Shown in pieces: positions 3,796 to 58,403 of a DNA stretch of 64,000 nt. The notes beneath the pieces were generated by a model that saw only the letters and a list, made by a program, of their open reading frames with translations, had not been told where the DNA came from and ran no database searches. The position numbers were made by a program, and so were the translations under genes. Source of the stretch: a virus. The stretch is taken from positions 1-64,000 of the IMG/VR virus record IMGVR_UViG_3300037557_000128. One strand, written 5' to 3'. The first letter of the stretch is position 1, and each line of letters begins with the position of its first letter.

Positions 3796-5143
3796 CTAGT
3801 GTACTCACTCTTGCATCTTTAAAAAAATCACGAGCAACACCTTTTGAGAAACACCAAATATTTTCAATATAGTATTTCTTCATGAACTCGTCCATTGCAG
3901 CTTTATCAAAGTCTCCATTCTCATCTTTGAATACAGATTTACCTTGAGGTCTTTGCATGATTCTCATTCCTATTTGACCGTCAAAGTATTCTTCACCAAC
4001 GTGTCTGATAACTTCGTCTCCCGACCTGTATCTAACTCCATGTATTTTTGGGTCAAGAATGTTAATGTACAAGACTCCACTATTTGCAAGTGATTCAAAT
4101 GATTTCTTTGCTACTGGTAAATAGAACTCGTCTCTCCACGCATTATACTCGTTAAACTTTGCCCAAGATTGGTCTTGTTCATGTTCACCACCTTCGTTGT
4201 ATCTCTCTGTTGAAAAATAAGGTGGAGAAGTGAATGCACAATCGATTGGTGGAAGTTGATGGTATTTCATATCCTCTGCACCACAACGATGTATCTCAAC
4301 TTTCTTTGACCCAATACATGAGAAGTAATCTTCCTGTTCAATTATGTCGGGTTCTTCACCTGTAAGAATTCGTTCATAAAATATACATTGTTTCTTATAA
4401 CGTTCAAATGTTGCAGGGTTTGGGTCACAACCTATGTACTCTTTAGTGTAATTCCCTGCATAAAAACCACATAGTCTGTCACCCCAACCACAAGAAGTAT
4501 CAAGTATTGTTTCACTCCTAGTGTTGTCATAGATAGATTTTGCAACAAGTGGTTTGAACTGCGTTGCAATGTATGTTCCCAATCTGAATGCAGAAATGTA
4601 AGACTTTTCATCCAACTTTCCACCCATGAGTTCTTCCTTTCCTTCAACCTGTACTTTTTGTACACCATTGATTCCTCTCCAAATAGGCCCTAAACATCTC
4701 CAAATTTCTTTAGAGGTTCCTTCTTCCCAAACTTTTACTGGTGGTTGGAAACCATAACTTCCACACGCAAGTCTTAAATCTTGGTGAAAGAAGTTTGATG
4801 CATCAGAATGATTAGATGCACAATCTATTAAACCTAATCCCCAAGAATGAAAGTCAAAAGTATAATCGTCATACTTTTCCATGACTTCTTGTTGTAGGTT
4901 ATCGGTAGGTGTGATACAGTTTGAAGTATCATAATCTTTTAATGCAAGAAACATTTCACGCATTCTTTCATATGATATTTCTTTGAAAGGAAATGGTGGT
5001 CTGGTTTCTGCAATAAAATCTGCTACTGCAAGACGAAATTCTTCCTTACCATATTCTTTGGTAGTCTTATCAAAAAGGTTGCCGTCTAATATAGGTAACC
5101 CATTTGAATTGACATTATCGGATAGAATTTGTTTTAGGGACAT
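3779..5143 (-). CDS. Putative DNA amino-methyltransferase (TSPPY motif)
   Basis: A 454-residue protein. The C-terminal half carries amino-methyltransferase features: a SAM-binding stretch DTSCGWGDR at about 215-223, GCDPNP at 238-243, and the catalytic motif TSPPY at 305-309. TSPPY-type motifs are typical of exocyclic N4-cytosine or N6-adenine DNA methyltransferases. The first 200 residues form an unrecognised extra domain, perhaps for target recognition. No restriction enzyme lies beside it, so protection of phage DNA or hypermodification is likelier than a restriction-modification role. It starts in TAATG overlapping the peroxiredoxin stop and is followed by two coupled genes. Confidence 0.8.
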   Translation of the reverse strand: MSLKQILSDNVNSNGLPILDGNLFDKTTKEYGKEEFRLAVADFIAETRPPFPFKEISYERMREMFLALKDYDTSNCITPTDNLQQEVMEKYDDYTFDFHSWGLGLIDCASNHSDASNFFHQDLRLACGSYGFQPPVKVWEEGTSKEIWRCLGPIWRGINGVQKVQVEGKEELMGGKLDEKSYISAFRLGTYIATQFKPLVAKSIYDNTRSETILDTSCGWGDRLCGFYAGNYTKEYIGCDPNPATFERYKKQCIFYERILTGEEPDIIEQEDYFSCIGSKKVEIHRCGAEDMKYHQLPPIDCAFTSPPYFSTERYNEGGEHEQDQSWAKFNEYNAWRDEFYLPVAKKSFESLANSGVLYINILDPKIHGVRYRSGDEVIRHVGEEYFDGQIGMRIMQRPQGKSVFKDENGDFDKAAMDEFMKKYYIENIWCFSKGVARDFFKDARVSTLDGFFE

Positions 5144-5688
5144 TATTGAGGATTGTTTCCAAGATATTCCATTACAGTTTCTGCGTTAGATACTAAAAAT
5201 GGGTCTGATTCAATGTTGTCTTGAAATCCTTCTTCAATAAACATTTTCTCAACTTTACCATCATTAATTATAGCTGCGTATCTCCAAGACCTCATACCAA
5301 ATCCTAGATTTGATTTTTTGACTTCTGCACCAAACTTATGTGTGAACTCTCCATTTCCATCGGGAAGGAAAGTTATATCTGTTTCTCCAAAAGACTCTTT
5401 CCACTCATTCATAACAAAAGTGTCATTCACTGAAATACAGTAAATTCCGTCAATCTGTAATGATTGGAATTTTTTAAAATTTTCCTGAAAACCAGGCACT
5501 TGTTGGGTACTGCAAGTTGGTGTAAATGCACCAGGCAATCCAAATATGATTACTCTCTTACCTGCAAATTCTTCTGTAGTGTTGATATTACCCCACTCTC
5601 CGTCTACACGAACTGGGAAATCAACATTAGGAACTTCTTGACCTACGTCAATAGGCAGTCCCATAATTGCGTTATTGTCACTCGACAT
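5143..5688 (-). CDS. Peroxiredoxin, Prx5/type II class
   Basis: A 181-residue thiol peroxidase. The active-site motif PGAFTPTCS places the peroxidatic cysteine at C59; a second cysteine at C84 is the only other one and could be the resolving thiol. The length and the late FGMRSWRYAAIINDG segment fit the Prx5-like AhpC/TSA family. It would reduce peroxides in the cytoplasm using host thiols. A GGAG site precedes the ATG at 5688. It is first in the run leading to DNA polymerase and has its own TTACAG-N17-TATAAT promoter. A phage-borne peroxiredoxin would be an auxiliary gene against oxidative damage during infection. Confidence 0.88.
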   Translation of the reverse strand: MSSDNNAIMGLPIDVGQEVPNVDFPVRVDGEWGNINTTEEFAGKRVIIFGLPGAFTPTCSTQQVPGFQENFKKFQSLQIDGIYCISVNDTFVMNEWKESFGETDITFLPDGNGEFTHKFGAEVKKSNLGFGMRSWRYAAIINDGKVEKMFIEEGFQDNIESDPFLVSNAETVMEYLGNNPQ

Positions 5689-5704
5689 ATCTTACTCCAT
5701 AATA

Positions 5705-5744
5705 TAAAAAGATACACCTATTATACAACATAACAGGTGTATCT
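5705..5744 (-). terminator. Rho-independent terminator after hsp20
   Basis: On the minus strand a perfect 10-bp stem (AGATACACCT/AGGTGTATCT), extended by five further pairs around a GTTGT loop, is followed by five T. It lies just past the hsp20 stop at 5757. The peroxiredoxin promoter is embedded in the same stem. Confidence 0.8.
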
Positions 5745-5748
5745 GTAA
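5720..5748 (-). promoter_or_regulatory. Sigma70-type promoter for the peroxiredoxin operon
   Basis: On the minus strand, TTACAG (5743-5748) is separated by 17 nt from a consensus TATAAT (5720-5725). The predicted start near 5712 gives a short leader with GGAG before the ATG at 5688. The same TTACAG-N17-TATAAT arrangement occurs before gp55 at 28609-28637. Confidence 0.75.
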
Positions 5749-5756
5749 GGGGTTTT

Positions 5757-6182
5757 TTAAGAAATTTTGATTTCTTGAGGTTTATCTTCTTCGGGTACAA
5801 TCCTTTCCAAAGACACACTCAAAATCCCATTCTTCATATCTGCACCTTTAACGACTATATCGTCTGCAAGTGTGAATGTTCTTTTGAATGAACGTGATGC
5901 AAGTCCTTTATGGACATACTCAAGTTCCTCTCCATCCTCTTGTTTACCTTCAATTGCAAGAATCTCTTTCTCTTTTGAGATTGAAATATCTTTCTTGGTA
6001 AATCCAGCTACTGCAAGTTCGATTGCAAAGTTTTCTGCATCGTGTTTTACAATATTGTAAGGTGGATAATTTACATTAGAGTGCGTGTCTGCACGTTCTA
6101 ATAGTTTTAGGTGTCGGTCAAAACCGATTGCGAATGGAAAATCCGTTGTGAATCTTCCGAAGACATCATCGAAGTGTGTCAT
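5757..6182 (-). CDS. hsp20: Small heat-shock protein Hsp20
   Basis: A 141-residue alpha-crystallin-domain chaperone of the IbpA type, common in T4-like marine phages. The N-terminus (FDDVFGRF, PFAIGFDR) is followed by the alpha-crystallin domain: PPYNIVKHDAENFAIELAVAGF, then SRSFKRTFTLADDI and the conserved GxLxxxL element as NGILSVSLERI. An IxI-like tail closes as EIKIS. It should hold unfolded proteins, perhaps during virion assembly. The start at 6182 has AGGAG 6 nt upstream; that site can pair with a TTGCT just upstream, suggesting heat-controlled translation. A late promoter lies about 305 nt upstream. Confidence 0.93.
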   Translation of the reverse strand: MTHFDDVFGRFTTDFPFAIGFDRHLKLLERADTHSNVNYPPYNIVKHDAENFAIELAVAGFTKKDISISKEKEILAIEGKQEDGEELEYVHKGLASRSFKRTFTLADDIVVKGADMKNGILSVSLERIVPEEDKPQEIKIS

Positions 6183-6487: not shown

Positions 6488-6495
6488 TATTTATA
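6488..6495 (-). promoter_or_regulatory. Late promoter (TATAAATACTATT) for hsp20
   Basis: Minus-strand TATAAATA followed by CTATT, a full match to the T4 late -10 consensus recognised by gp55. The start site would fall at the base of the 5' hairpin of the hsp20 leader. Confidence 0.8.
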
Positions 6496-6533: not shown

Positions 6534-8420
6534 TCAAGGGGTTTTCTTTAATTTTCTTAATTCTTTATTAATTAGTGGTGCATATATCTTAACTGGAATC
6601 TCTTTTCCTTTAACATTTATCTCGTCAAGATACTGCCATTCACAATCAACCTGTTTCTTTGTGAACTCTGACATTAGAATAGGTGTATCATATGTTCTAG
6701 TTTGCACTTCAAGTCGAGCTGCAAGGTTAACTGCATCTCCGACAACTGAATAATCGAATCGTTCTTCTGACCCCATATTGCCCACGATACACTGACCAGT
6801 GTTAATTCCAGTGCCTATGACTACTGGTGGTAAATCTAATCCTTCTCTTTCTAACTCTACATTCATTTGTTCTGTTAACAGTTCTATTTCTATTGCAGAA
6901 TCTAAAGCCCTTTGTGCGTGGTCAGGACAATCTAAAGGAGCTCCCCACCATGCCATCAAACAGTCGCCCATATACTTATCAATGGTTCCACCATTTGCGA
7001 GTACTATTTTTGACATACCGTCTAGGAATCTATTGATTAATAACACTAGACCTTCAGGGTCGTCATTCTTCATATAAGCTTCGCTTATAGGGGTGAACCC
7101 AACTATATCTGCAAATAAGAATGAAAGTTCCTTTCTATCTCCACCTAATTTCAATTTTTCGGGGTGTTTTTGCAGTTCTTCAATCATGTCAGGCGATAAA
7201 TATTTTTGGAACTGCTTCTTTATTTGTTGCTTTTCTTGAAAGGTAACATAGTATTTGTTGAAAGATGCATGACCAAACACAATCAAGGAGGCCAAAGATG
7301 AAAAGAAGGTATCGAAAAGAACGAGACTTGAAGACCAAATATAGAAACTCCCACCCACCTGAAGTACTACGAGTCCTAGAGAAAATGTCCCCGAAAGAGC
7401 TGTGGGAAGCTTATAAACCATTACCAACACAATTAATAGAACTGACAGAAGAAGAACAATTTCTACGAATTCAAGAAAGTAGGATTGCTTTATTTGAATT
7501 CCTGTCAAGGCGGTTTGTATCAGATTCGCTTGTACTTCGTGAGGATACATTGTACCCATTGGGGTTGAAACTGGATTGTTCCATCCTTCAGCGGTTACCC
7601 CAAACACAAGAATAGCGTTTTCAGGTAATTCATCAGTGAAGGAATAACGTTTAAACTTGTTCCAATAACTTATCATTAAATCACCTTGAGGTGTTGTGGA
7701 TATGGGTTGTTGTCTTCCGACTCTGACCCATTCTACTCCAACCTCTTCAGTGACTTTCATTTGGTAAGATTTTTCGTCATTAAAAGCACGTAACACTTCA
7801 ATTGCAAGTGAGGGATATATTTGTCCGTTCGCTTGCATGAGTAATGGTGCAGAACGTATGGTTCCATCGAAGTTTGGAGTACCCGAAATACTAGGAGTTG
7901 CAGTAGTTACCCCTACTCCATAGGTGTTTCCCTCTAGTACAGGAATGGGGCTGAGCACCCCTGGCGTCCCCCACACTGCGTTTTTAGCGTCTCCTGACCC
8001 CAAAGTACTAGTTCCGACAAAGGGAGATGACCCTTTTTGGGTCTGAATTGTGGGTGCTGACGATAAAATGGACAATCTATTGACCAAAGCAGTCGCAAAT
8101 TCCTCGTCTCCACCGAATCTATCGACCTCTGAGAACACTTGCGTGAACACATAAGTGTTAGACCAGTGTGATTCCAGTAGTTTATCTGCGTATATTTTGC
8201 GTGGGAATGGTAATTGTCCGAACTCTTCTACTGACTTTTCGTCAATATCGACCAAAACAATTTCGGGAAGTCCTGATTCGGAATCGTACTCTTGAACACT
8301 ATGTGTGCTATGTAAGTAGTCAAACCACGACCATGAGATGTTCTCTATGAAGTATGGGTTCCAAATTTTAAGTCCAAATAATAACCCTATCGTGACTAAT
8401 ACGGTTTTCCAAGAGTACAT
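6534..8420 (-). CDS. CHASE2-domain class III adenylate/guanylate cyclase, membrane-bound
   Basis: A 628-residue membrane receptor cyclase. Order: N-terminal membrane anchor (residues ~5-22); a periplasmic CHASE2 sensor (~40-305, with EIVLVDIDEKSVEEFGQLPFPR and DGTIRSAPLL); three membrane helices (~315-395); a short linker; and a class III cyclase domain (~430-610). The cyclase keeps the metal aspartates in FADIVGFTP and YMGDCLMAW, and the transition-state Asn/Arg in YSVVGDAVNLAARLE, so it should be active, making cAMP (or cGMP). CHASE2 cyclases often sit beside FecR proteins in bacteria, and a FecR gene lies three genes upstream here. It starts in a TAATG overlap at the end of the curli-like operon. 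I know of few phage receptor cyclases. Confidence 0.92.
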   Translation of the reverse strand: MYSWKTVLVTIGLLFGLKIWNPYFIENISWSWFDYLHSTHSVQEYDSESGLPEIVLVDIDEKSVEEFGQLPFPRKIYADKLLESHWSNTYVFTQVFSEVDRFGGDEEFATALVNRLSILSSAPTIQTQKGSSPFVGTSTLGSGDAKNAVWGTPGVLSPIPVLEGNTYGVGVTTATPSISGTPNFDGTIRSAPLLMQANGQIYPSLAIEVLRAFNDEKSYQMKVTEEVGVEWVRVGRQQPISTTPQGDLMISYWNKFKRYSFTDELPENAILVFGVTAEGWNNPVSTPMGTMYPHEVQANLIQTALTGIQIKQSYFLEFVEIVLLLSVLLIVLVMVYKLPTALSGTFSLGLVVLQVGGSFYIWSSSLVLFDTFFSSLASLIVFGHASFNKYYVTFQEKQQIKKQFQKYLSPDMIEELQKHPEKLKLGGDRKELSFLFADIVGFTPISEAYMKNDDPEGLVLLINRFLDGMSKIVLANGGTIDKYMGDCLMAWWGAPLDCPDHAQRALDSAIEIELLTEQMNVELEREGLDLPPVVIGTGINTGQCIVGNMGSEERFDYSVVGDAVNLAARLEVQTRTYDTPILMSEFTKKQVDCEWQYLDEINVKGKEIPVKIYAPLINKELRKLKKTP

Positions 8421-8575
8421 TATTCAATAGTTGGCCATGCAAAGAAAAATATGTATAAACATATTCCTATCAATGCAAGTGCTAGCAATCCTGAAGTTAC
8501 CCCTGACCAAAACTTTTTCTTTTCTGACTTACGGTAATCTTGGATAAAATCGTCTATCCTTTCTTTACTACTCAT
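8420..8575 (-). CDS. Small single-span membrane protein
   Basis: 51 residues from the ATG at 8575: a charged N-terminal helix (KERIDDFIQDYRKSEKKKFW), then one transmembrane segment (TSGLLALALIGICLYIFFF). It overlaps the upstream gene by 4 nt (ATGA) and the cyclase by 1 nt, so it is an integral part of the operon. It could be an accessory subunit of the cyclase or secretion complex; its function is unknown. Confidence 0.7.
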   Translation of the reverse strand: MSSKERIDDFIQDYRKSEKKKFWSGVTSGLLALALIGICLYIFFFAWPTIE

Positions 8576-8841
8576 GAAAATTTCTTCTGTATTTTTTTGT
8601 ACATATAGTATATAGATAGTCCATAGAATGCAAGTACGGACATTGAGATTCCGATATAGAACAATTCTACTGGGGATAAGAAAAGGACATTCCAAACAAA
8701 GTTAGCTGCAGCTTCACCGTCACCTAATGGTGCAAGTGATTCAGGCATTTCTAATTCATTATCTTCTAGAAGTGTGACCCACTCTTCATATTCGGTTTCA
8801 CTGAGACAATGATAATACTCTTCGGGACAGTCTACTTCCAT
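8572..8841 (-). CDS. Small acidic membrane protein
   Basis: 89 residues. The N-terminal 45 residues are strongly acidic (ETEYEEWVTLLEDNELEMPE); one or two membrane segments follow (NVLFLSPVELFYIGI, MSVLAFYGLSIYYMY), then a basic tail KKIQKKFS. The positive-inside rule puts the acidic head outside and the tail in the cytoplasm. It lies between the second curlin-like gene and the cyclase, with a 4-nt overlap to the next gene. No family is recognised. Confidence 0.7.
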   Translation of the reverse strand: MEVDCPEEYYHCLSETEYEEWVTLLEDNELEMPESLAPLGDGEAAANFVWNVLFLSPVELFYIGISMSVLAFYGLSIYYMYKKIQKKFS

Positions 8842-8899
8842 TTGATTACCCTACCTAGACACCATTCTAAGAATCGTATTGCTTTCGCTTTTATGCTCA

Positions 8900-9736
8900 T
8901 TAGTTTTGCGTGACACTTACTGTACAGCCACCTGATGTTTGACAATTTTGAGACAACGTATAATTTTGAGTTGTATTGGAATGTTGTGAAATATTAAGTG
9001 TGGTTGGATAATTTCCGTTTATGGTAATGTTTGAGTTGTGTTCACCATTTCCGTCTTGTAAGTAATCAACGGTATTACCATCGTTATTAATGGTTAAATA
9101 AAATTCTTTTGTACCATCTGCTTTTTGTTTACCGAAAACAGAATTGTTATCACCATAAAGATAGATTTTTGCTTTATGACCATCACAAGCACCAGTTGCA
9201 CAATTTCTTTGTTGTCCTACAACTGTATTATTATTACCGTGAATATCTACAGTAACCCAATGACCACCACCTTCAGTGTTATCCTTTGCCCAAGATGTAT
9301 CAGTTCTACTTGAAATTTCAAATCCTTGAGCCCACCAAAGCTTATTATTTGTTCCATATGAAATATGAAACTGAATATCATTAGTGTTACAATCATCACC
9401 TTTTGTACAGTTCTGCCAAAGTTTTACATCTTGGTCATCGTGGTCTATATCACCACCCCAACCTGCACCTGATCCCCATGTAACAATATCATCTGCCCAA
9501 CCTATTTCTTGATTGTTTCCAACTTGATATATATCTATTGAAGAATCATCAATATCACCTATAGAAAAGAATACACGATTATCATAACCTTCCTGCGTGA
9601 TACTGAGGTCAAGATTAGTTGAGGCTGTGACTTGATTTATGGCAATAGTGTTATCATCACCACCAAATGCCTTAAATGATAATCCTAGACAAAGGAGTGC
9701 CACTGCACCTGTTAATAACTTCGCACCTAAATCCAT
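8900..9736 (-). CDS. Secreted curlin-like repeat protein (second copy)
   Basis: About 278 residues from the ATG at 9736; an upstream TTG at 9757 is less likely. A signal peptide (LLTGAVALLCLGLSFKAFG) is followed by strand-turn repeats rich in N, D, G and Q, such as NTIAINQVTAST, LDLSITQEGYDNRV, SIDIYQVGNNQ and HGNNNTVVGQQ, which resemble curlin Nx5QxGxxN units. Cysteine pairs (CTKGDDC, CATGAC, CQTSGGC) recur at loops and suggest disulfides after export. It probably is a CsgG/CsgF-exported beta-solenoid or amyloid-like subunit. It differs from E. coli CsgA in length and spacing, so the curlin label rests on pattern and neighbours. Confidence 0.7.
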   Translation of the reverse strand: MDLGAKLLTGAVALLCLGLSFKAFGGDDNTIAINQVTASTNLDLSITQEGYDNRVFFSIGDIDDSSIDIYQVGNNQEIGWADDIVTWGSGAGWGGDIDHDDQDVKLWQNCTKGDDCNTNDIQFHISYGTNNKLWWAQGFEISSRTDTSWAKDNTEGGGHWVTVDIHGNNNTVVGQQRNCATGACDGHKAKIYLYGDNNSVFGKQKADGTKEFYLTINNDGNTVDYLQDGNGEHNSNITINGNYPTTLNISQHSNTTQNYTLSQNCQTSGGCTVSVTQN

Positions 9737-9737
9737 A

Positions 9738-9887
9738 TTAACCACACAACCATACAAATAATAGAGTAAGGACTACTCCTTCTGCGAATGAAATCCACAT
9801 CATCCAATAATCGTCTAGTCTCAGAGCTTTTTGAAATCCAAAGATTTGAGTTTCATGCCATGAGCGGAACTTTTCTAGTATATTCAT
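9738..9887 (-). CDS. 49-residue single-span membrane protein
   Basis: A short gene found by translating between the FecR gene and the second curlin-like gene. AGGAG precedes the ATG at 9887 by 6 nt and the TAA ends 2 nt before the next ATG. The N-terminus is amphipathic (NILEKFRSWHETQIFGFQKAL), then a transmembrane helix (MWISFAEGVVLTLLFVWL). It fits the operon without a gap, which supports it being real. Function unknown. Confidence 0.65.
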   Translation of the reverse strand: MNILEKFRSWHETQIFGFQKALRLDDYWMMWISFAEGVVLTLLFVWLCG

Positions 9888-9895
9888 ATATTCTC

Positions 9896-11029
9896 CTAGT
9901 TTGTTTGTGTAATGGTAATATTTATAGACGAACCATCACCCACCACGATATGTGACTCTTTTTCGTCTGTTATAGTTCTAATATCTGCTTGTGCAAACAT
10001 GGGAATCCTGATTGAAATAATTCCATTCACTTCCCTGTATAACCATATTTGACCAAGACCCTTATCTATAATTGTATTATATTGAGAGTCTTTGTCGAAA
10101 CCTGCAGAAGTACCCGATAATCGAACACTTCCGAATTTTGCACGTTCTCTATCTATACCCACTTTTTTGTCAATGTCTAATACAATATCGAGTAAATCTT
10201 GTAAAAAATCAATGTCGAGTAAATCTCTATCTAGCTCTGTATATTCCAGCTCATCATCTTCAAAGTAGTCCGTTTCCAAATCATTGAACTCTAAGAAGTC
10301 TACATCTAGAATATTATTCGCATCATTTTCTCCACCACCTGATTCTTCTGAAACTTGGTCAGAAACCTCATCAGGTGGACTGACAATGAACATATTATCA
10401 ATCATTCCAATGTTTACACCATTAACCGTTACTGGTTTTGTTGGTGAATCATCATAAGTCGACACCATAGTTGCTTGGTATGCTTCATTCATAGTTACTG
10501 AACCACCTGCATTTGATACTATAATGATTCCTGAAGGTGAACCCCATTTATCTGGCAAAAGCATAACAAGTGAGCGTCCTAATTCATCAATACTTGTGGT
10601 GAAATCTGTGCCTCTGACTGCAATTGTGGCAGTAGGTGTCCTAATTTCAATATTTGCTTTTTTAATTTTTCCACCAAATCCCGAAGCAAATCGAGCGGTG
10701 CCTTGTGCCATTCTTAATGACATTTTTGATAGACTTGGGTCGGGGTCATAATAAACCTCGTCTATCCAAACTTTAGAATGTTCTGTTAATGAAAGTTCTT
10801 CTTCGCCTTCGAACTTTATTTTCATTCTCCCATTCTGAGTTTGTGCAGTATCGTACATTAATACATCAGGATTTTCTGATGCCAATAGGACGGTGTTATC
10901 ACCGTCTCTTGTAAGACCTGCGTAACCTTTTTCCTCAATGATTTCACCAATCGAGTCAGCATTAACCAACCCGACTGATAAAATACTAAGAATCGTTATC
11001 GTCTTTTTGAACGATGTCAATATTTCCAT
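9896..11029 (-). CDS. FecR-domain secreted protein
   Basis: 377 residues. A signal peptide (ITILSILSVGLVNA) is followed by a FecR-type beta domain at ~25-170: ENPDVLMYD, LTEHSKVWIDEVYYD, the hallmark MAQGTARFASG, and TPTATIAVRGTDF. A very acidic linker (~225-285, rich in DLLDIDFL) follows, and then a C-terminal beta region ending SINITITQTN, which resembles a curlin-type strand. FecR proteins are periplasmic regulators or surface-associated modules and are often encoded next to CHASE2 cyclases. It may link the secreted fibre to the cyclase sensor. It overlaps the preceding curlin-like gene by 44 nt. Confidence 0.82.
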   Translation of the reverse strand: MEILTSFKKTITILSILSVGLVNADSIGEIIEEKGYAGLTRDGDNTVLLASENPDVLMYDTAQTQNGRMKIKFEGEEELSLTEHSKVWIDEVYYDPDPSLSKMSLRMAQGTARFASGFGGKIKKANIEIRTPTATIAVRGTDFTTSIDELGRSLVMLLPDKWGSPSGIIIVSNAGGSVTMNEAYQATMVSTYDDSPTKPVTVNGVNIGMIDNMFIVSPPDEVSDQVSEESGGGENDANNILDVDFLEFNDLETDYFEDDELEYTELDRDLLDIDFLQDLLDIVLDIDKKVGIDRERAKFGSVRLSGTSAGFDKDSQYNTIIDKGLGQIWLYREVNGIISIRIPMFAQADIRTITDEKESHIVVGDGSSINITITQTN

Positions 11030-11720
11030 TAGTAGTCACGAAAGTTACGTCAATAATACCACTACAAGATTGACCACTTGGACAACCTGTATCTGAACCT
11101 GATTTCTGAATGATGTCTATATCATTTCCTGAACCAGTTAAGACTGCAGTAATACTATTATCGGTTGCATCTAATTGATTGGTGTTAATGTCGTTTGTTG
11201 AACCTGTAACAGTCCAGTTCCAAACAGCATTATCTGAGTTAACTTTAGTTGTAAATATATTACTTGAACCACCAACTACTAAATCGTAGTTTAAGTATTC
11301 AGCTGAAGCTGCGTCACCAATATCAATATTCCATGTATTAGAATCACCAGTAACAGCACTTAACATATTTAAACTGTCAGCACTATTTTGACCAATGTTC
11401 CAGTCCATTGAGTTTGAATTTCCAGTGAAGGTAAGGTTTATCGTTGCTGAGTCAGCAATCATAGGCCCAAATAATTTGTTAGTGTCTCCATATTGGATAA
11501 GTGTAAAATTATTCGATGCACCAGTCAAAACCATGTCTATGGAAGTGCCTGCGAAGTTATCGCCGCCAACTTTGTTTCCATAACCTTTCTGCGTGAAATT
11601 CAATACAAGTGCTGTACCTGATTGATTTAACCAAATTTCGTTATCGTCTGCTCCTGCGAATACTGTGGCAGGTAGTAGACCTAATGTTAACATAATGAGT
11701 GAAATAAATTTATTCTTCAT
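10986..11720 (-). CDS. Secreted curlin-like protein (CsgA/B-like)
   Basis: 244 residues. A clear signal peptide (KFISLIMLTLGLLPATVFA) is followed by imperfect strand-turn repeats: NEIWLNQSGTA, LVLNFTQKGYGNKV, NFTLIQYGDTNKLF, DIDIIQKSGSD and NIDIVQKDDNDS. These N/Q-ladder repeats match the curlin pattern and begin just after the predicted cleavage site. It lies between csgG and the FecR gene, so it is the most likely main export substrate. The middle repeats are degenerate (TGSTNDINTNQLD), so the fibre may differ from bacterial curli. It starts inside the csgG 3' end (11-nt overlap). Confidence 0.75.
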   Translation of the reverse strand: MKNKFISLIMLTLGLLPATVFAGADDNEIWLNQSGTALVLNFTQKGYGNKVGGDNFAGTSIDMVLTGASNNFTLIQYGDTNKLFGPMIADSATINLTFTGNSNSMDWNIGQNSADSLNMLSAVTGDSNTWNIDIGDAASAEYLNYDLVVGGSSNIFTTKVNSDNAVWNWTVTGSTNDINTNQLDATDNSITAVLTGSGNDIDIIQKSGSDTGCPSGQSCSGIIDVTFVTTNGNIDIVQKDDNDS

Positions 11721-12642
11721 TTGTTTTTTCCTCTGTAACTAAGACGATTTCATTTTCATCTAAAAAGTCTGACACTTCCTCTTTTATTTTTGATTCAGTT
11801 ATCGGCCATTTTATTTTCCAAAATCCTCTTTCATCACCTTGATAGATTAATTCTAGGACGGCAAGTTCGATTGCAGAACGAGTCGCTTTCGTAACCCCTT
11901 CATTAGTTGCTACGCCATCCTCAATTTCCACTAATTTTGTGTCCATGTCCACAAAACGGAATACATCGTACCCACCACCAGTCGATAAAATAGTCTTGGT
12001 AGTTTGTACATTAAGTAAAATTTCACCAGTAAGTGTTGATATTCCTCTCAAACTTACCGTGACCACATCTCTTCTATATTGGCTTGAAGCACCGATACCT
12101 AAGTATCTTGCGCCTCGGCCACCCGATTCAATGTTAGTATCATAACCAACAATCCCACCGTCAAGTAGGATTCCTGCGAACAAGAGAGGTTGGATACCCG
12201 TAGGTGAATCCTCATTACCTTCTTGATTCGCAAAATCTTCTCTCGCAGAACGAACAATTTGCCTTTCTCTTACAAGTGCATCTAAACTTGTACGTTCTAC
12301 TACTCTAAACCATTTTCCTTGTCCTGCAGTTTTAAGTGCATCAATAAGAAATGATTCACCACCCTGTGTCACTGCAGTTGAGAAAGATGCAATTCCATCT
12401 TTGCTCTTACGTTGTCCTGTTTTATCTAGGAAACCGTAAACTGCAACAATAGGCATATTTTCTGCAGGTGGTAATTCCAACAATTCCATATGTGTAGGAA
12501 GTTTAACTGATTCTGCAGGTTCGATACAAGTTCCTATCTTGTTCATAATTGCAGTACTGCAAGTGTCATTGACACTTGGTACGCTTGCACACCCAGTCGT
12601 GAGCAAGACCACTATCAGTCCTACAAACCCTAACGTCTTCAT
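11710..12642 (-). CDS. csgG: CsgG-type curli secretion channel lipoprotein
   Basis: 310 residues, homologous across its length to CsgG (277 residues in E. coli), the outer-membrane nonameric channel of type VIII secretion. The lipoprotein signal ends at C18 (VVLLTTGC). Conserved blocks include IVAVYGFLDKTGQ, SFSTAVTQGGESFLIDAL, WFRVVERTSLDALVRERQI, the strand region SGGRGARYLGIGASSQY, LTGEILLNVQTTKTILS and FRFVDMD. At the constriction E. coli Y51/N55/F56 align with D82/S86/F87, so the aromatic ring is kept at F only. About 30 extra residues follow the lipid cysteine. It sits directly after csgF, with no csgE or csgD. Confidence 0.93.
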   Translation of the reverse strand: MKTLGFVGLIVVLLTTGCASVPSVNDTCSTAIMNKIGTCIEPAESVKLPTHMELLELPPAENMPIVAVYGFLDKTGQRKSKDGIASFSTAVTQGGESFLIDALKTAGQGKWFRVVERTSLDALVRERQIVRSAREDFANQEGNEDSPTGIQPLLFAGILLDGGIVGYDTNIESGGRGARYLGIGASSQYRRDVVTVSLRGISTLTGEILLNVQTTKTILSTGGGYDVFRFVDMDTKLVEIEDGVATNEGVTKATRSAIELAVLELIYQGDERGFWKIKWPITESKIKEEVSDFLDENEIVLVTEEKTNEE

Positions 12643-13128
12643 TTAAAAACTACCAGTACCTACAGGTATATCTAATGTTGTTGTTGTTCCATCTGAAGAA
12701 ACTATGGTCAAACGAATAAATTCTACTCCGTCCTCTCCAACTAGTTTTTCATATGTAACCGTATTTCCTTCAATGGTGAACACTCCAAAATCAGAAGCTT
12801 CACCGTTAGAGAACATATTCTCTACTAACTGTTTTGCAATTTGGGCATAAATTCTACTCTCAACATTTCTTAAAAATTTTGCTAGCGTTGTATTCGAAGC
12901 TTCTCTTTCTGCCTTTGAGAGTGCATCTTTTACGTCTTGTTCAATTTTATCACGTCTTGATTTCTGTTGATTCTCGATTGTCAAATAATGCGAACTTTGT
13001 CCAACTCCACTGAAACTTGGACTCTTAAATTTATGCACTATTTCATCTGCTTCGACTTGCGATGCAAAAAATGTAATCAGTATTACCCAACTGACAAATA
13101 ATAATTCTCTATCTTTTTTTAGTTTCAT
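12643..13128 (-). CDS. csgF: CsgF-type curli assembly protein
   Basis: About 161 residues from the ATG at 13128 (GGGCGG upstream); an ATG at 13149 would add seven residues. After a signal peptide (LLFVSWVILITFFASQVEA) comes the family N-terminus HKFKSPSFSG, the part that plugs CsgG, then the LTIENQ segment, a helical middle (NVESRIYAQIAKQLVENMF) and a C-terminal beta sheet ending TLDIPVG. CsgF is secreted, binds the mouth of CsgG and couples the nucleator to the cell surface. It is immediately upstream of csgG with no spacer. Similarity looks closest to alphaproteobacterial-style CsgF. Confidence 0.9.
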   Translation of the reverse strand: MKLKKDRELLFVSWVILITFFASQVEADEIVHKFKSPSFSGVGQSSHYLTIENQQKSRRDKIEQDVKDALSKAEREASNTTLAKFLRNVESRIYAQIAKQLVENMFSNGEASDFGVFTIEGNTVTYEKLVGEDGVEFIRLTIVSSDGTTTTLDIPVGTGSF

Positions 13129-13378
13129 TTCCGCCCTTCTTCTTATCATTCTCTTTCATTTCGAGGACTACGTTTACCTTTTGCTGTAAACGAATTAAAT
13201 CTTGGTCTAACATTCTCACTTGATCGATAAGTTTTATCAGTGCAAAATGTTGTTTCTCCACTTCGGGTTCGAGGTTTTCACCAACAAACCACCAAACATA
13301 ATATACAAAATAACCCAGTCCTACCATCATTACAATAGGGAACCCATAGTCGTTTATAAGTTGTGCCACTCCTTCCAT
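13109..13378 (-). CDS. Small membrane protein with coiled coil
   Basis: 89 residues: one transmembrane segment (GFPIVMMVGLGYFVYYVWWFV) followed by a charged helix with heptads (IKLIDQVRMLDQDLIRLQQKVNVVL) and a basic tail. It ends inside csgF and starts right after the next upstream gene, so it is in the same operon. The topology resembles the gene just upstream and the one at 46894-47154. It could be a holin-like or secretion-accessory protein; no family is certain. Confidence 0.65.
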   Translation of the reverse strand: MEGVAQLINDYGFPIVMMVGLGYFVYYVWWFVGENLEPEVEKQHFALIKLIDQVRMLDQDLIRLQQKVNVVLEMKENDKKKGGNETKKR

Positions 13379-13379
13379 A

Positions 13380-13676
13380 TTAATCTCTTCTTACATCTAG
13401 TGTTCCATCTTCTATGAAATTCTCGGCTCTTGCGACTCTATCGATGTCGGGTCTAAGTTCTAATGCACTAGATACTAGTAAATCTATCTTAATCATTTCG
13501 TTAGACATGGTTCTCGCACGATTTTCTAATGACGTACAGAACATTGTAAGTGTTTTAATGTCACCAACAACACCCTCTAGTATTTGCTTAATTACAGTAA
13601 ATATGAAAAACCCCATTACAAGACTACCTGCAATAGGAGCTCCCACTTCACTTATCAATCCGAATATTTCACTCAT
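13380..13676 (-). CDS. Small membrane protein with coiled coil, first gene of the curli-like operon
   Basis: 98 residues from the ATG at 13676: membrane segment (IAGSLVMGFFIFTVIKQIL) then a helical cytoplasmic or periplasmic region. A late promoter GATAAATA ends exactly 5 nt before this ATG, so the transcript probably starts at the ATG. A longer frame from a TTG at 13712 would begin inside the upstream terminator and is rejected. It opens the csgF-csgG-curlin-FecR-cyclase run. Confidence 0.65.
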   Translation of the reverse strand: MSEIFGLISEVGAPIAGSLVMGFFIFTVIKQILEGVVGDIKTLTMFCTSLENRARTMSNEMIKIDLLVSSALELRPDIDRVARAENFIEDGTLDVRRD

Positions 13677-13681
13677 ACCAC

Positions 13682-13689
13682 TATTTATC
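13682..13689 (-). promoter_or_regulatory. Late promoter of the curli/FecR/cyclase operon
   Basis: Minus-strand GATAAATA followed by GTGGT then ATG. Spacing to the ATG is the usual distance from a T4 late -10 box to the start site, predicting a leaderless message. Confidence 0.65.
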
Positions 13690-13710: not shown

Positions 13711-13736
13711 AAAAAAAAGGGGTCTAAAAGACCCCT
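13711..13736 (-). terminator. Rho-independent terminator after the SAP-like membrane protein
   Basis: Minus strand: AGGGGTC, TTTTA loop, GACCCCT, then a run of eight T. It separates the 13761-14039 gene from the curli-like operon. Confidence 0.9.
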
Positions 13737-37524: not shown

Positions 37525-37701
37525 TTAACCTTCTGCTACTTCTTCTTTCTCAACGGTTGACCATGTAGTCGAAGTTTCAACTCTTTTGAAGTCTACTGCT
37601 TGTGCAGCCTTTTCCTTGACACCTTGACCGATTAGGTCTTTTGCACTCTGCAATTCACCCTTCTCTATCGTATCAACTATTTCTCTCGCAATTTTACTCA
37701 T
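37525..37701 (-). CDS. Short prohead core protein in the gp67 position
   Basis: 58 residues starting in TAATG at the gp20 stop with GGAG upstream. Charged and helical (KIAREIVDTIEKGELQSAK; KEKAAQAVDFKRVE), ending in a Glu/Lys-rich tail. T4 gene 67 (80 residues, acidic core protein) has this position. Function by position only. Confidence 0.6.
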   Translation of the reverse strand: MSKIAREIVDTIEKGELQSAKDLIGQGVKEKAAQAVDFKRVETSTTWSTVEKEEVAEG

Positions 37702-39254
37702 TATTTGTCTCCAATTTCGTTTGAGTCGTAAAACCCGTCTCCGCCACCAGTGTCTGCACCGTCAGCCTTTTCTTGTTCGATTTGGGAATCAATTTCCTTG
37801 ATTTCCTCTTCTGTTTGTCGCAAAATATACTTTCTAACGTACTCTTGACTGAAGTATTTTCCAACATATTCACTAGCAGTTTGAAGTGCATCTAATCTTT
37901 CTCTAAGAATCTCTTGTTCTTTCAATTCTGTAAAGTGGTTGTCTGCAGTATAGTCATATTGTAAAAAGTCTTTAAACTTGTCAAACTCTTCTGCACTTAC
38001 AACCTCTTTAAGAACTAACTGAGTTCTTAATAAATCTGTAAAACACCTCGCAAACTTCTTCTGAAGTCTGTTAGTGAACTTATTAAACTTAAGTTCGTCT
38101 CTAGAAATCTCCGAAGAACGACCCATATTGAATCCGTTATCCGACTCCATTCTAGAACTTGGAACATTTAATGACTGATATAACTTCTTCTTGAAGTATT
38201 CTACATCGTCAATTTCTGCGAGGTTTTGTCCACCAGGCAAGGTTGTAATTTCCGTTCCTCTACCACCTTCTCTTCTTGGCAACCAAAAATCTTCCAACAT
38301 ACTCATATGTTTTCTATCATCTTTGATTTCACCAGTATCTGCATTGTAAACAAGTTTATTTCTATACTTGTTCATTACATCTGCAAGATATTGTTCTGCT
38401 TTTGCCTTTGGAAGGTTACCTACGTCAATGTAGAAAATCCTTCTTTCAGGTGCTCTAGACAATCTATAGATTACTAGTGCATCTTCCATCATTGATAACT
38501 GATTTGCAGTCTTCAATGCTTTGTGCAAATACCCAATAACTGCATTCTTGTTAAAATCTAACAATCCTGAAGTAGTATAAGTCACTGCCTCAGGTGCAAT
38601 TCTGACTGTTGTACCTTCATTAGTACCAGTCTTGTCGAAACCTTTATCGTTGAAAATGTAAAATTCTTCCGTCTTCGTGACAATGTCTACACCTTCTTTC
38701 TTATCTTTCTTAGTCTCAACATTTCTGACCTTCTTAATCTTAAGAGGGTCAACCTGTCTGATGTCAACAATACCAGCTTTGGTTCTGTTGCTATCAACTA
38801 CCTTATGGAAGTAAATCCTTCCATCGATGTACCATTTTCGGAATATTTCATGAGAGTTCTGATTGAACTTCATCATTGCTAGGATGCTGTAAAACTCGTC
38901 TTGCATCTTATTTTTGATGCTATCAGAGAGCTTCACATCTCTGAGGTCGAGTGTTACTATCCTATCGGCACTATCCGAAGTGATACACTCATTCACTATA
39001 TCTTCAATAGCCGCATCGCATTCGGGTACTAGGGAAGTTTCTCTGTATCTTCGAATAAGTTCAACCTCATTCTTGATACCACCTTCCATATCTACATAGG
39101 CACCATAAGCACCACCTGCAATATACCCTGCTTGTTGTGCGACAATGGGTGTACCATCATCGTCAACTTGAGGAACAAAACTCTTCTGAGAACTGACCTC
39201 TGAGGCTCTTAACTCGTCTTTTTTACGAGTGATTTCAAATCCAAATATATCCAT
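37701..39254 (-). CDS. 20: Portal protein gp20
   Basis: 517 residues (T4 gp20 is 524). Forms the dodecameric head-tail connector that starts prohead assembly and passes DNA. Typical blocks: VELIRRYRETSLVPECDAAI, MMKFNQNSHEIFRKWYIDGR, VIYRLSRAPERRIFYIDVGN, WLPRREGGRGTEI, and FNMGRSSEISRDELKF. A TATAAATA box ends 5 nt before the ATG, so the mRNA is probably leaderless. Confidence 0.96.
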   Translation of the reverse strand: MDIFGFEITRKKDELRASEVSSQKSFVPQVDDDGTPIVAQQAGYIAGGAYGAYVDMEGGIKNEVELIRRYRETSLVPECDAAIEDIVNECITSDSADRIVTLDLRDVKLSDSIKNKMQDEFYSILAMMKFNQNSHEIFRKWYIDGRIYFHKVVDSNRTKAGIVDIRQVDPLKIKKVRNVETKKDKKEGVDIVTKTEEFYIFNDKGFDKTGTNEGTTVRIAPEAVTYTTSGLLDFNKNAVIGYLHKALKTANQLSMMEDALVIYRLSRAPERRIFYIDVGNLPKAKAEQYLADVMNKYRNKLVYNADTGEIKDDRKHMSMLEDFWLPRREGGRGTEITTLPGGQNLAEIDDVEYFKKKLYQSLNVPSSRMESDNGFNMGRSSEISRDELKFNKFTNRLQKKFARCFTDLLRTQLVLKEVVSAEEFDKFKDFLQYDYTADNHFTELKEQEILRERLDALQTASEYVGKYFSQEYVRKYILRQTEEEIKEIDSQIEQEKADGADTGGGDGFYDSNEIGDK

Positions 39255-39259
39255 ACTAT

Positions 39260-39267
39260 TATTTATA
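39260..39267 (-). promoter_or_regulatory. Late promoter TATAAATA, 5 nt from gp20 ATG
   Basis: Minus-strand TATAAATA, ATAGT, ATG at 39254; no Shine-Dalgarno site fits in between. Confidence 0.75.
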
Positions 39268-57556: not shown

Positions 57557-58390
57557 TTATACTGCAATCTCTATTTTCTTAAATTTGAACACTGTAGAAT
57601 TAGTACTTGCAGGTGTTACCCTGAGTCTAAGTGTCCCAATGTTAATATCTACAGTAAATGTTGCAAGAGGAGAAGAACCTGTATGCATTTCTCCGTATTG
57701 AACATGGTATCCTGTAGTTCCATTATGTAAAGTTTGTATTTCGATAACGTGGTATTCACCCGAAGTCGAATCACTTGCTTGAATTTGGTATTTTGTGCTT
57801 CTGTAACTTGCGATTGCCCATGAATCCAAAGTTGCTTGAGACGTTGATGTTGTTGTTAGTGTTCCTTCTGTAAGACCACCTGCATCTCCAAATGATAATG
57901 CACCACTACCATTTGTTTTTATAAATTGTCCATTTGTTCCATCACTGGTTGGAAAGGTTATGGAATTACCTGTAAGACCATTTGTTGCAGTTATTGTTGT
58001 TGCAGTTAAATCACCAACAAGTAAATCTGCAAGAGCATAATTACTTCCACTTAAATCAACTGTAGTTGTGGGTTCTACTTCTAACCCGTCAAATAACTTC
58101 CATGTTGAATCTGTTGCATCTCTGAATAAACCCGTGTATTCAGAAACACCACTTTCACCACTTAAGCCGTCATTATAGTTTCCATAAAAACCAATATCAA
58201 TTAAATCTGCAGAAGTGTTTCCACTCGCAAGTTCCATCATGGAATCCACAACTGAACTTGTTGTAGAATCGATTATTGTTTGTGTACCTTGTACCGTTAG
58301 ATTCCCACCAATTGTAAGATTACCATCAATCTCAGTGTGGGTTAACGATTTAATACCTAAGTCTGCGTAAAATTTGGATTGAGTAGCCAT
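57557..58390 (-). CDS. Fibre protein with paralogous C-terminal domain
   Basis: 277 residues. N-terminal TQSKFYADLGIKSLTHTEID and LTIGGNLTVQGTQTIIDSTT fibre repeats; then a C-terminal ~95-residue domain (YRSTKYQIQASDS, HVIEIQTLHNGTTGYHVQYG, GTLRLRVTPASTNSTVFKF) shared with the next two genes. TATAAATA ends 5 nt before the ATG. Confidence 0.75.
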   Translation of the reverse strand: MATQSKFYADLGIKSLTHTEIDGNLTIGGNLTVQGTQTIIDSTTSSVVDSMMELASGNTSADLIDIGFYGNYNDGLSGESGVSEYTGLFRDATDSTWKLFDGLEVEPTTTVDLSGSNYALADLLVGDLTATTITATNGLTGNSITFPTSDGTNGQFIKTNGSGALSFGDAGGLTEGTLTTTSTSQATLDSWAIASYRSTKYQIQASDSTSGEYHVIEIQTLHNGTTGYHVQYGEMHTGSSPLATFTVDINIGTLRLRVTPASTNSTVFKFKKIEIAV

Positions 58391-58395
58391 AGTAC

Positions 58396-58403
58396 TATTT
58401 ATA
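58396..58403 (-). promoter_or_regulatory. Late promoter TATAAATA, 5 nt from ATG
   Basis: Minus-strand TATAAATA, GTACT, ATG at 58390, predicting a leaderless fibre mRNA. Confidence 0.75.

Follow-up and report, generated by a model that had tools for sequence, protein, structure and literature searches.

A T4-like phage genome fragment was found to encode a curli-type gene cluster that includes a FecR-domain protein and a CHASE2 receptor cyclase. It lies in IMG/VR virus record IMGVR_UViG_3300037557_000128, the first 64,000 of whose 79,348 bases (the window) were analyzed. The cluster runs on the minus strand from 13676 to 6534, in the order mem1, mem2, CsgF, CsgG, cur1, FecR, sm49, cur2, sm89, sm56, and CHASE2 adenylyl cyclase. 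We read it as a type VIII (curli) system that the phage expresses late to display proteins on the cell surface, one of them an adhesin-like subunit that can be exchanged, and in which a periplasmic sensor follows assembly; we give this interpretation about an even chance of being right. The core gene set was already published in 2022; what is added here are two obligatory membrane proteins, a slot in which the fiber protein is swapped, and the lack of a standard cyclic AMP (cAMP) receptor.

Clusters containing csgF and csgG were described in pelagimyophages, for which sibling capture was proposed (Zaragoza-Solas et al. 2020, PMC7029224), and in phage Melnitz, for which a role in lysis was proposed (Buchholz et al. 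2022, PMC9004378). Wittmers et al. (2022, PMC9599517) described the order CsgF-CsgG-CsgA/B-FecR-CsgA/B-adenylate cyclase for pelagi-podo- and -myophages, detected viral curli at each of the 65 GOV2.0 stations, and found the phage curli genes and FecR expressed in ocean metatranscriptomes. Annotations for CsgF, CsgG, a curlin protein, and the cyclase are present in the existing record of phage HTVC008M.

Operon Layout and Late Promoter

The source record belongs to a T4-like phage. Its gp23-type major capsid protein is 67% identical to that of Methylophilales phage Melnitz and 64% identical to those of Pelagibacter phages Mosig and HTVC008M, and translation repressor and scaffolding PHROGs are also present. 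A gp46 comparison aimed at the host matched T4-like phages in general and indicated no host. The operon genes mostly overlap or abut, and the open reading frames (ORFs) and Pfam matches agree with the gene content and tight overlaps proposed in a first-pass annotation of the window.

That annotation had also called an upstream terminator and a single late promoter, both of which were recovered. A terminator-like hairpin with a T-run (13739–13715, minus strand; 11-bp stem, five GC pairs, T-rich tail) separates the operon from an upstream 92-aa gene and closes the preceding unit. A T4-type late promoter octamer, GATAAATA (13682–13689, minus strand; consensus TATAAATA), lies at −13 from the first ATG. 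The start of the first gene is corrected to ATG 13676, its open frame extending to a TTG at 13712. Octamers of the TATAAATA type are enriched in the window and fall on the coding strand in 14 of 15 cases. The operon promoter is very probably real, because 73 of the 169 distinct sequences that precede the operon in relatives have an NATAAATA octamer with precisely this −13 spacing to the ATG. The T4 late box spans −13 to −6 of the transcription start site; with the octamer of the window at −13 from the ATG, the operon transcript is thus predicted to be leaderless. Elsewhere in the window, TATAAATA at 39260–39267 and 58396–58403 ends 5 nt before the ATG of the genes at 37701–39254 and 57557–58390, for which leaderless late mRNAs are likewise predicted, and several other genes carry TATAAATA 28–45 nt upstream.

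Predicted Export Pore and Conservation of the Cluster

CsgG (11710–12642, minus strand), the outer-membrane lipoprotein pore, carries a TTGCAS lipobox and matches Pfam PF03783 at 1.8e-48 and the PDB structures of Escherichia coli CsgG at 4.9e-45. CsgF (12643–13125, minus strand; open frame from ATG 13149) matches PF10614 at 2.6e-12 across nearly the whole profile. No Pfam match to CsgE, CsgC, or CsgD was obtained among the operon proteins. Since all three are also absent from phage and alphaproteobacterial systems as published (PMC9599517), this is no bar to membership in type VIII secretion.

Conservation was assessed over 302 viral CsgG loci, which came from four scans of IMG/VR, three with CsgG and one with mem2, and were supplemented with HTVC008M and Melnitz; individual loci are given L numbers. 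FecR is present in all 190 loci with at least 2.5 kb of downstream sequence and the cyclase in 119 of the 121 with 6 kb downstream, while mem1 and mem2 are both found in the locus in 191 of 217 with 3.5 kb upstream. Nearly every cluster also has secreted curlin-like genes. Ordered co-occurrence in relatives, put forward in the first-pass annotation as a check, is borne out. One 337-kb record that encodes a gp23 capsid protein also has the cluster. The cluster is not universal in pelagimyophages, given that isolate Mosig is missing from the CsgG-bearing records. A 1,499-bp wastewater “Salmonella phage” record (L083, OR851715.1) contains a CsgG relative and no other cluster gene and is probably a stray contig.

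Two Membrane Proteins Linked to CsgG

The first two genes of the operon encode mem1 (13380–13676, minus strand; 98 aa), with a single transmembrane segment and a coiled/amphipathic helix, and mem2 (13109–13378, minus strand; 89 aa), with a single transmembrane segment and a DRIRMLDNDLIRL-type helix. The two proteins are paralogous (hhalign probability 98.6, E 7e-16), and both fall in phrog_18771; they are ∼90–100 aa long, with one transmembrane segment and a conserved helix. No operon gene is more conserved than mem1, whose median identity to the window is 0.90 and which is 87–95% identical in most relatives.

The pair tracks CsgG almost strictly. Among 50,697 phage records, mem1 and mem2 are confined to the six that carry CsgG and the cyclase, and the reverse IMG/VR scan with mem2 returned CsgG wherever a locus extended far enough downstream. 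The position of the pair varies: the two genes may stand upstream, flank CsgF, follow FecR, or lie downstream on the opposite strand. Twelve loci lacking the pair were checked over the whole record, which located it elsewhere in nine, the other three being fragments of 23–42 kb; 17 of 20 records tested carry the pair, and the three without it are fragments. mem1 and mem2 would accordingly rank, in the proposed system, as obligatory inner-membrane partners.

Genes preceding CsgF are labeled “histidine kinase, sometimes two” by Wittmers et al. (PMC9599517), and their position suggests that they are mem1 and mem2. For these two proteins the label is unsupported and was rejected for lack of a kinase domain: 31 mem1/mem2 proteins gave no kinase Pfam match (HisKA/HATPase) and share no conserved His.

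A Constant and an Exchangeable Curlin-like Protein

Both predicted substrates of the pore are curlin-like secreted proteins encoded on the minus strand, the conserved cur1 (10986–11720) and the variable cur2 (8900–9736; open frame from TTG 9757). In the window, both fall below the Pfam Curlin_rpt cut-off (cur2, 0.032; cur1, no match). Syntenic cur2 proteins exceed this cut-off (20.7 bits) in HTVC008M (33.1 bits), Melnitz (21.8), and L003 (26.6), as does the Melnitz orthologue of cur1 (26.0 bits). The repeat motifs of cur1 occur above the level of shuffled sequences (G..N, p = 0.0005; hxhxQ, matched by 0 of 2000 shuffles), those of cur2 are partly enriched over shuffles, and an AlphaFold2 model of cur1 displays an all-beta repeat fold with a predicted local distance difference test score (pLDDT) of 78.

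cur2 is a cassette exchanged by recombination. Across locus pairs whose FecR proteins are 90–99.9% identical, cur1 has a median identity of 0.93, and cur2 falls below 0.5 in 20 of 126 pairs. Nucleotide identity between the window and L003/L004 is 0.58–0.64 in cur2 against mostly 0.84–0.97 in the flanks. Conversely, one cur2 class is found in divergent backbones, with L039 and L044 sharing identities of 0.90 in cur2, 0.75 in FecR, and 0.66 in the cyclase. The last 50 residues, including a Cys pair, are common to all cur2 classes. In HTVC008M and L133, cur2 consists of a PA14 body fused with curlin repeats, and the slot is occupied by an F5/8 type C domain protein in L217 (a 168-kb record) and by a SoxYZ-like protein in L116. 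This pattern fits a displayed protein under exchange, and the conserved C-terminal cap, the exchangeable body, and the PA14 domains of relatives together argue that cur2 is probably the displayed, recognition-exposed subunit. Such exchange is not described in the accessible text of the published accounts of the cluster.

Additional proteins were observed around this slot. The SoxY-SoxZ fusion-like protein of L116 (L116:9707–10447) lies between FecR and cur2, and an ORF of equal length is present in L113. In L200, L206, L213, L217, L219, L221, L226, and L228, ORFs of ∼500–800 aa with a signal peptide are located between FecR or cur2 and the cyclase; most of them possess an outer-membrane beta-barrel-like end (C-terminal F), and one contains an F5/8 type C domain.

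FecR and the CHASE2 Cyclase

The periplasmic FecR-domain protein (9896–11029, minus strand) has a signal-peptide-like start, and PF04773 (4.7e-10) is its only Pfam match; no cytoplasmic anti-sigma N-terminal domain was detected with Pfam. The best fold match of its AlphaFold2 model is the periplasmic cell-surface signaling domain of PupR (6ovk, E 2.7e-3, probability 1.00). The protein ends in a curlin-like half-repeat, VGDGSSINITITQTN (9899–9946, minus strand), whose GxxNxIxIxQ-like pattern closes most of the viral FecR proteins aligned (L252 is among the exceptions) and is absent from a Hyphomonas homologue. FecR as an iron regulator is a weak candidate without an anti-sigma domain.

The cyclase (6534–8420, minus strand) matches CHASE2 at 5.1e-29 and Guanylate_cyc at 1.4e-17 in Pfam. 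The class III catalytic set is complete in the window, comprising two metal-binding Asp, the substrate Lys and Asp, and the transition-state Asn and Arg (D438, K482, D486, D556, N565, and R569). Across 108 cyclase homologues, the metal Asp residues, the Lys, and the Arg are invariant wherever aligned. A class III cyclase exceeded the cut-off in 2 of 147 Pelagibacter-family genomes. A Pycsar-type defense was rejected: the cyclase domain is PycC-like (4.7e-21), but the record has no effector gene for binding cyclic nucleotide monophosphates (cNMPs).

Cellular Relatives and Origin

The 80 best CsgG relatives in GTDB were compared. Those accompanied by mem1/mem2 look like phage contigs within bins, and cluster-bearing phage-like contigs (L244–L249, L251–L254, L267, and L281) reside in metagenome-assembled genomes named Sphingobacteriales, Saprospirales, Synechococcus, Rhodobacteraceae, Pelagibacter, and others, likely through binning contamination in GTDB. 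Nearby FecR, cyclase, and mem genes were lacking in approximately 65 genuine bacterial curli loci and in another 20 regions. The only cellular cassette seen with FecR and a cyclase is that of Hyphomonas sp. TMED17 (L250), where CsgF-CsgG-curlin-FecR-cyclase lies amid the ordinary bacterial genes of a 705-kb contig, without mem1/mem2. It is a counter-example to the statement that such genes do not occur within bacterial type VIII secretion operons.

The Hyphomonas CsgG branches beside the clade of the window on a long branch (SH-like approximate likelihood ratio test, 95). Viral monophyly excluding it is not rejected (approximately unbiased test, p = 0.27), and the tree fixes neither donor nor recipient. 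An origin by transfer of a curli operon that already carried FecR and cyclase in a cell was set aside, with a single cellular cassette to draw on and the direction left unfixed by that test.

Other Features of the Window

The remaining operon genes, all on the minus strand, encode small membrane proteins: sm49 (9738–9887; 49 aa, single transmembrane segment), whose position is kept in the clade of the window, sm89 (8572–8841), and the variable sm56 (8420–8590). Directly after the cyclase are genes for Hsp20 and a peroxiredoxin (5143–6182), which have their own TATAAATA at 6488–6495 and keep this place in many related loci. No Rfam match and no tRNAs were found in the window.

Interpretation and Alternatives

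In the mechanism that we propose, the CsgG/CsgF outer-membrane pore would export the constant cur1 and the variable cur2 onto the surface of the infected cell, where they may form a fiber. Periplasmic FecR probably touches curlin subunits via its C-terminal half-repeat. FecR and the inner-membrane CHASE2 cyclase, which may contact one another, probably report the state of export or assembly by making cAMP. The purpose would be to alter the infected cell surface against competitors, which appears likelier than host clumping.

Several observations weigh against this reading. Neither CsgE nor CsgC was seen in the operon, and the cur1 model matched no PDB structure significantly in a fold search. 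Ser or Gly replaces the substrate Asp in 26 of the 108 cyclases, nearly all of which also have Ser at the transition-state Asn. A cNMP-binding domain was found in none of 15 phage records (the 79-kb record and 14 related ones) and in 9 of 147 genomes of the Pelagibacter family, which may not be the host family of this phage. A cAMP signal, if made, would consequently lack a known receptor there. Finally, no clumping was seen in Melnitz culture (PMC9004378).

These results divide the interpretation given in the first-pass annotation. Its curli export genes, two curlin-like substrates, FecR with a CHASE2 cyclase, single late unit, and ordered co-occurrence stand. Its belief that FecR and the cyclase had not been tied to phage curli fails, because Wittmers et al. 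(2022, PMC9599517) report both in the cluster, and its proposal that infected cells sense the state of the fiber through cAMP meets the scarcity of receptors described above. The purposes that it put forward, namely lysis timing, host aggregation, or superinfection exclusion, are candidates.

A more specific version of the surface-display reading can be offered tentatively. Here, a fixed chassis (pore, constant fiber protein, fiber-touching sensor with its cyclase, and mem1/mem2) would present a cur2 slot for exchangeable, sometimes lectin-like cargo. The cargo would give each T4-like phage lineage its own surface type, excluding or recognizing competing phages, and the cyclase would signal through a hypothetical target in hosts without a known cAMP receptor.

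Sibling capture, in which the fiber glues the infected cell to its neighbors and thereby supplies progeny with hosts (Zaragoza-Solas et al. 2020), draws on the presence of curlin-like proteins and on the PA14 and F5/8 type C (L217) domains of relatives, both often sugar-binding. We consider it unlikely: the absence of clumping with Melnitz counts against it too, and a generic glue does not predict rapid exchange of cur2 alleles.

Somewhat less probable still is a role in lysis timing, as proposed for Melnitz (PMC9004378), in which CsgG with CsgF forms a gated hole that aids late depolarization or lysis, with mem1/mem2 acting as holin-like proteins. The late promoter and the strict linkage of mem1/mem2 to CsgG agree with it, as does a weak match of mem2 residues 1–20 to holin phrog_4898 (E 5e-4 over 20 residues). 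CsgG, as an outer-membrane lipoprotein, is nevertheless unable to depolarize the inner membrane alone, and two curlin-like secreted proteins, cur2 exchange, and the PA14 fusions are left unexplained. Moreover, the Melnitz paper states that csgA/csgB are missing, yet two proteins are annotated as curlin-associated repeat proteins in the Melnitz record (L082, MZ577097.1), and each of them exceeds the Pfam cut-off.

An uptake role, in which CsgG would bring in siderophores, cofactors, or large nutrients to the benefit of the phage (PMC7029224 and PMC9599517), is very improbable: the unseen CsgE gate and the name FecR, which suggests iron, speak for it, against a FecR reduced to a periplasmic domain with a signal peptide and the near-universal secreted curlin-like genes.

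What curli genes do in abundant ocean phages becomes testable under the surface-display reading. mem1 and mem2 are overlooked genes that are needed in any reconstitution, and the swapped cur2 indicates which product meets outside selection. Contact between FecR and the fiber is predicted, together with a cAMP signal that has no known phage receptor and few candidates in the host family (Pelagibacter).

Comparison with Known Systems

The closest published description is the pelagiphage type VIII secretion module of Wittmers et al. (PMC9599517), which has the same genes in the same order in podo- and myophages. The genes before CsgF are 89–98-aa single-transmembrane paralogues here and a “histidine kinase” there, and the accessible text of that paper mentions neither cur2 cassette exchange nor the curlin tail of FecR, the late promoter at −13, or the 337-kb member. 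HTVC008M (KC465899) and Melnitz (MZ577097) are fully syntenic with the window, from mem1 and mem2 through FecR and both curlin-like genes to the cyclase, and their proteins are ∼28–48% identical to those of the window. The differences are that HTVC008M cur2 has PA14 and that the Melnitz cyclase, unlike that of the window, has Ser at both the substrate Asp and the transition-state Asn.

Alphaproteobacterial curli operons possess the same CsgF-CsgG-curlin order but lack FecR, cyclase, and mem1/mem2 nearby, except for FecR and the cyclase in Hyphomonas TMED17. FecR proteins adjoining CHASE2 receptors are known in bacteria (PMC5192318). In the biofilm-linked BiofilmReg operon of Burkholderia, for which no curli genes are described (PMC5192318), a secreted FecR-domain protein adjoins a CHASE2 receptor, as in the phage pair; the output is a histidine kinase in BiofilmReg and an adenylyl cyclase in the phage.

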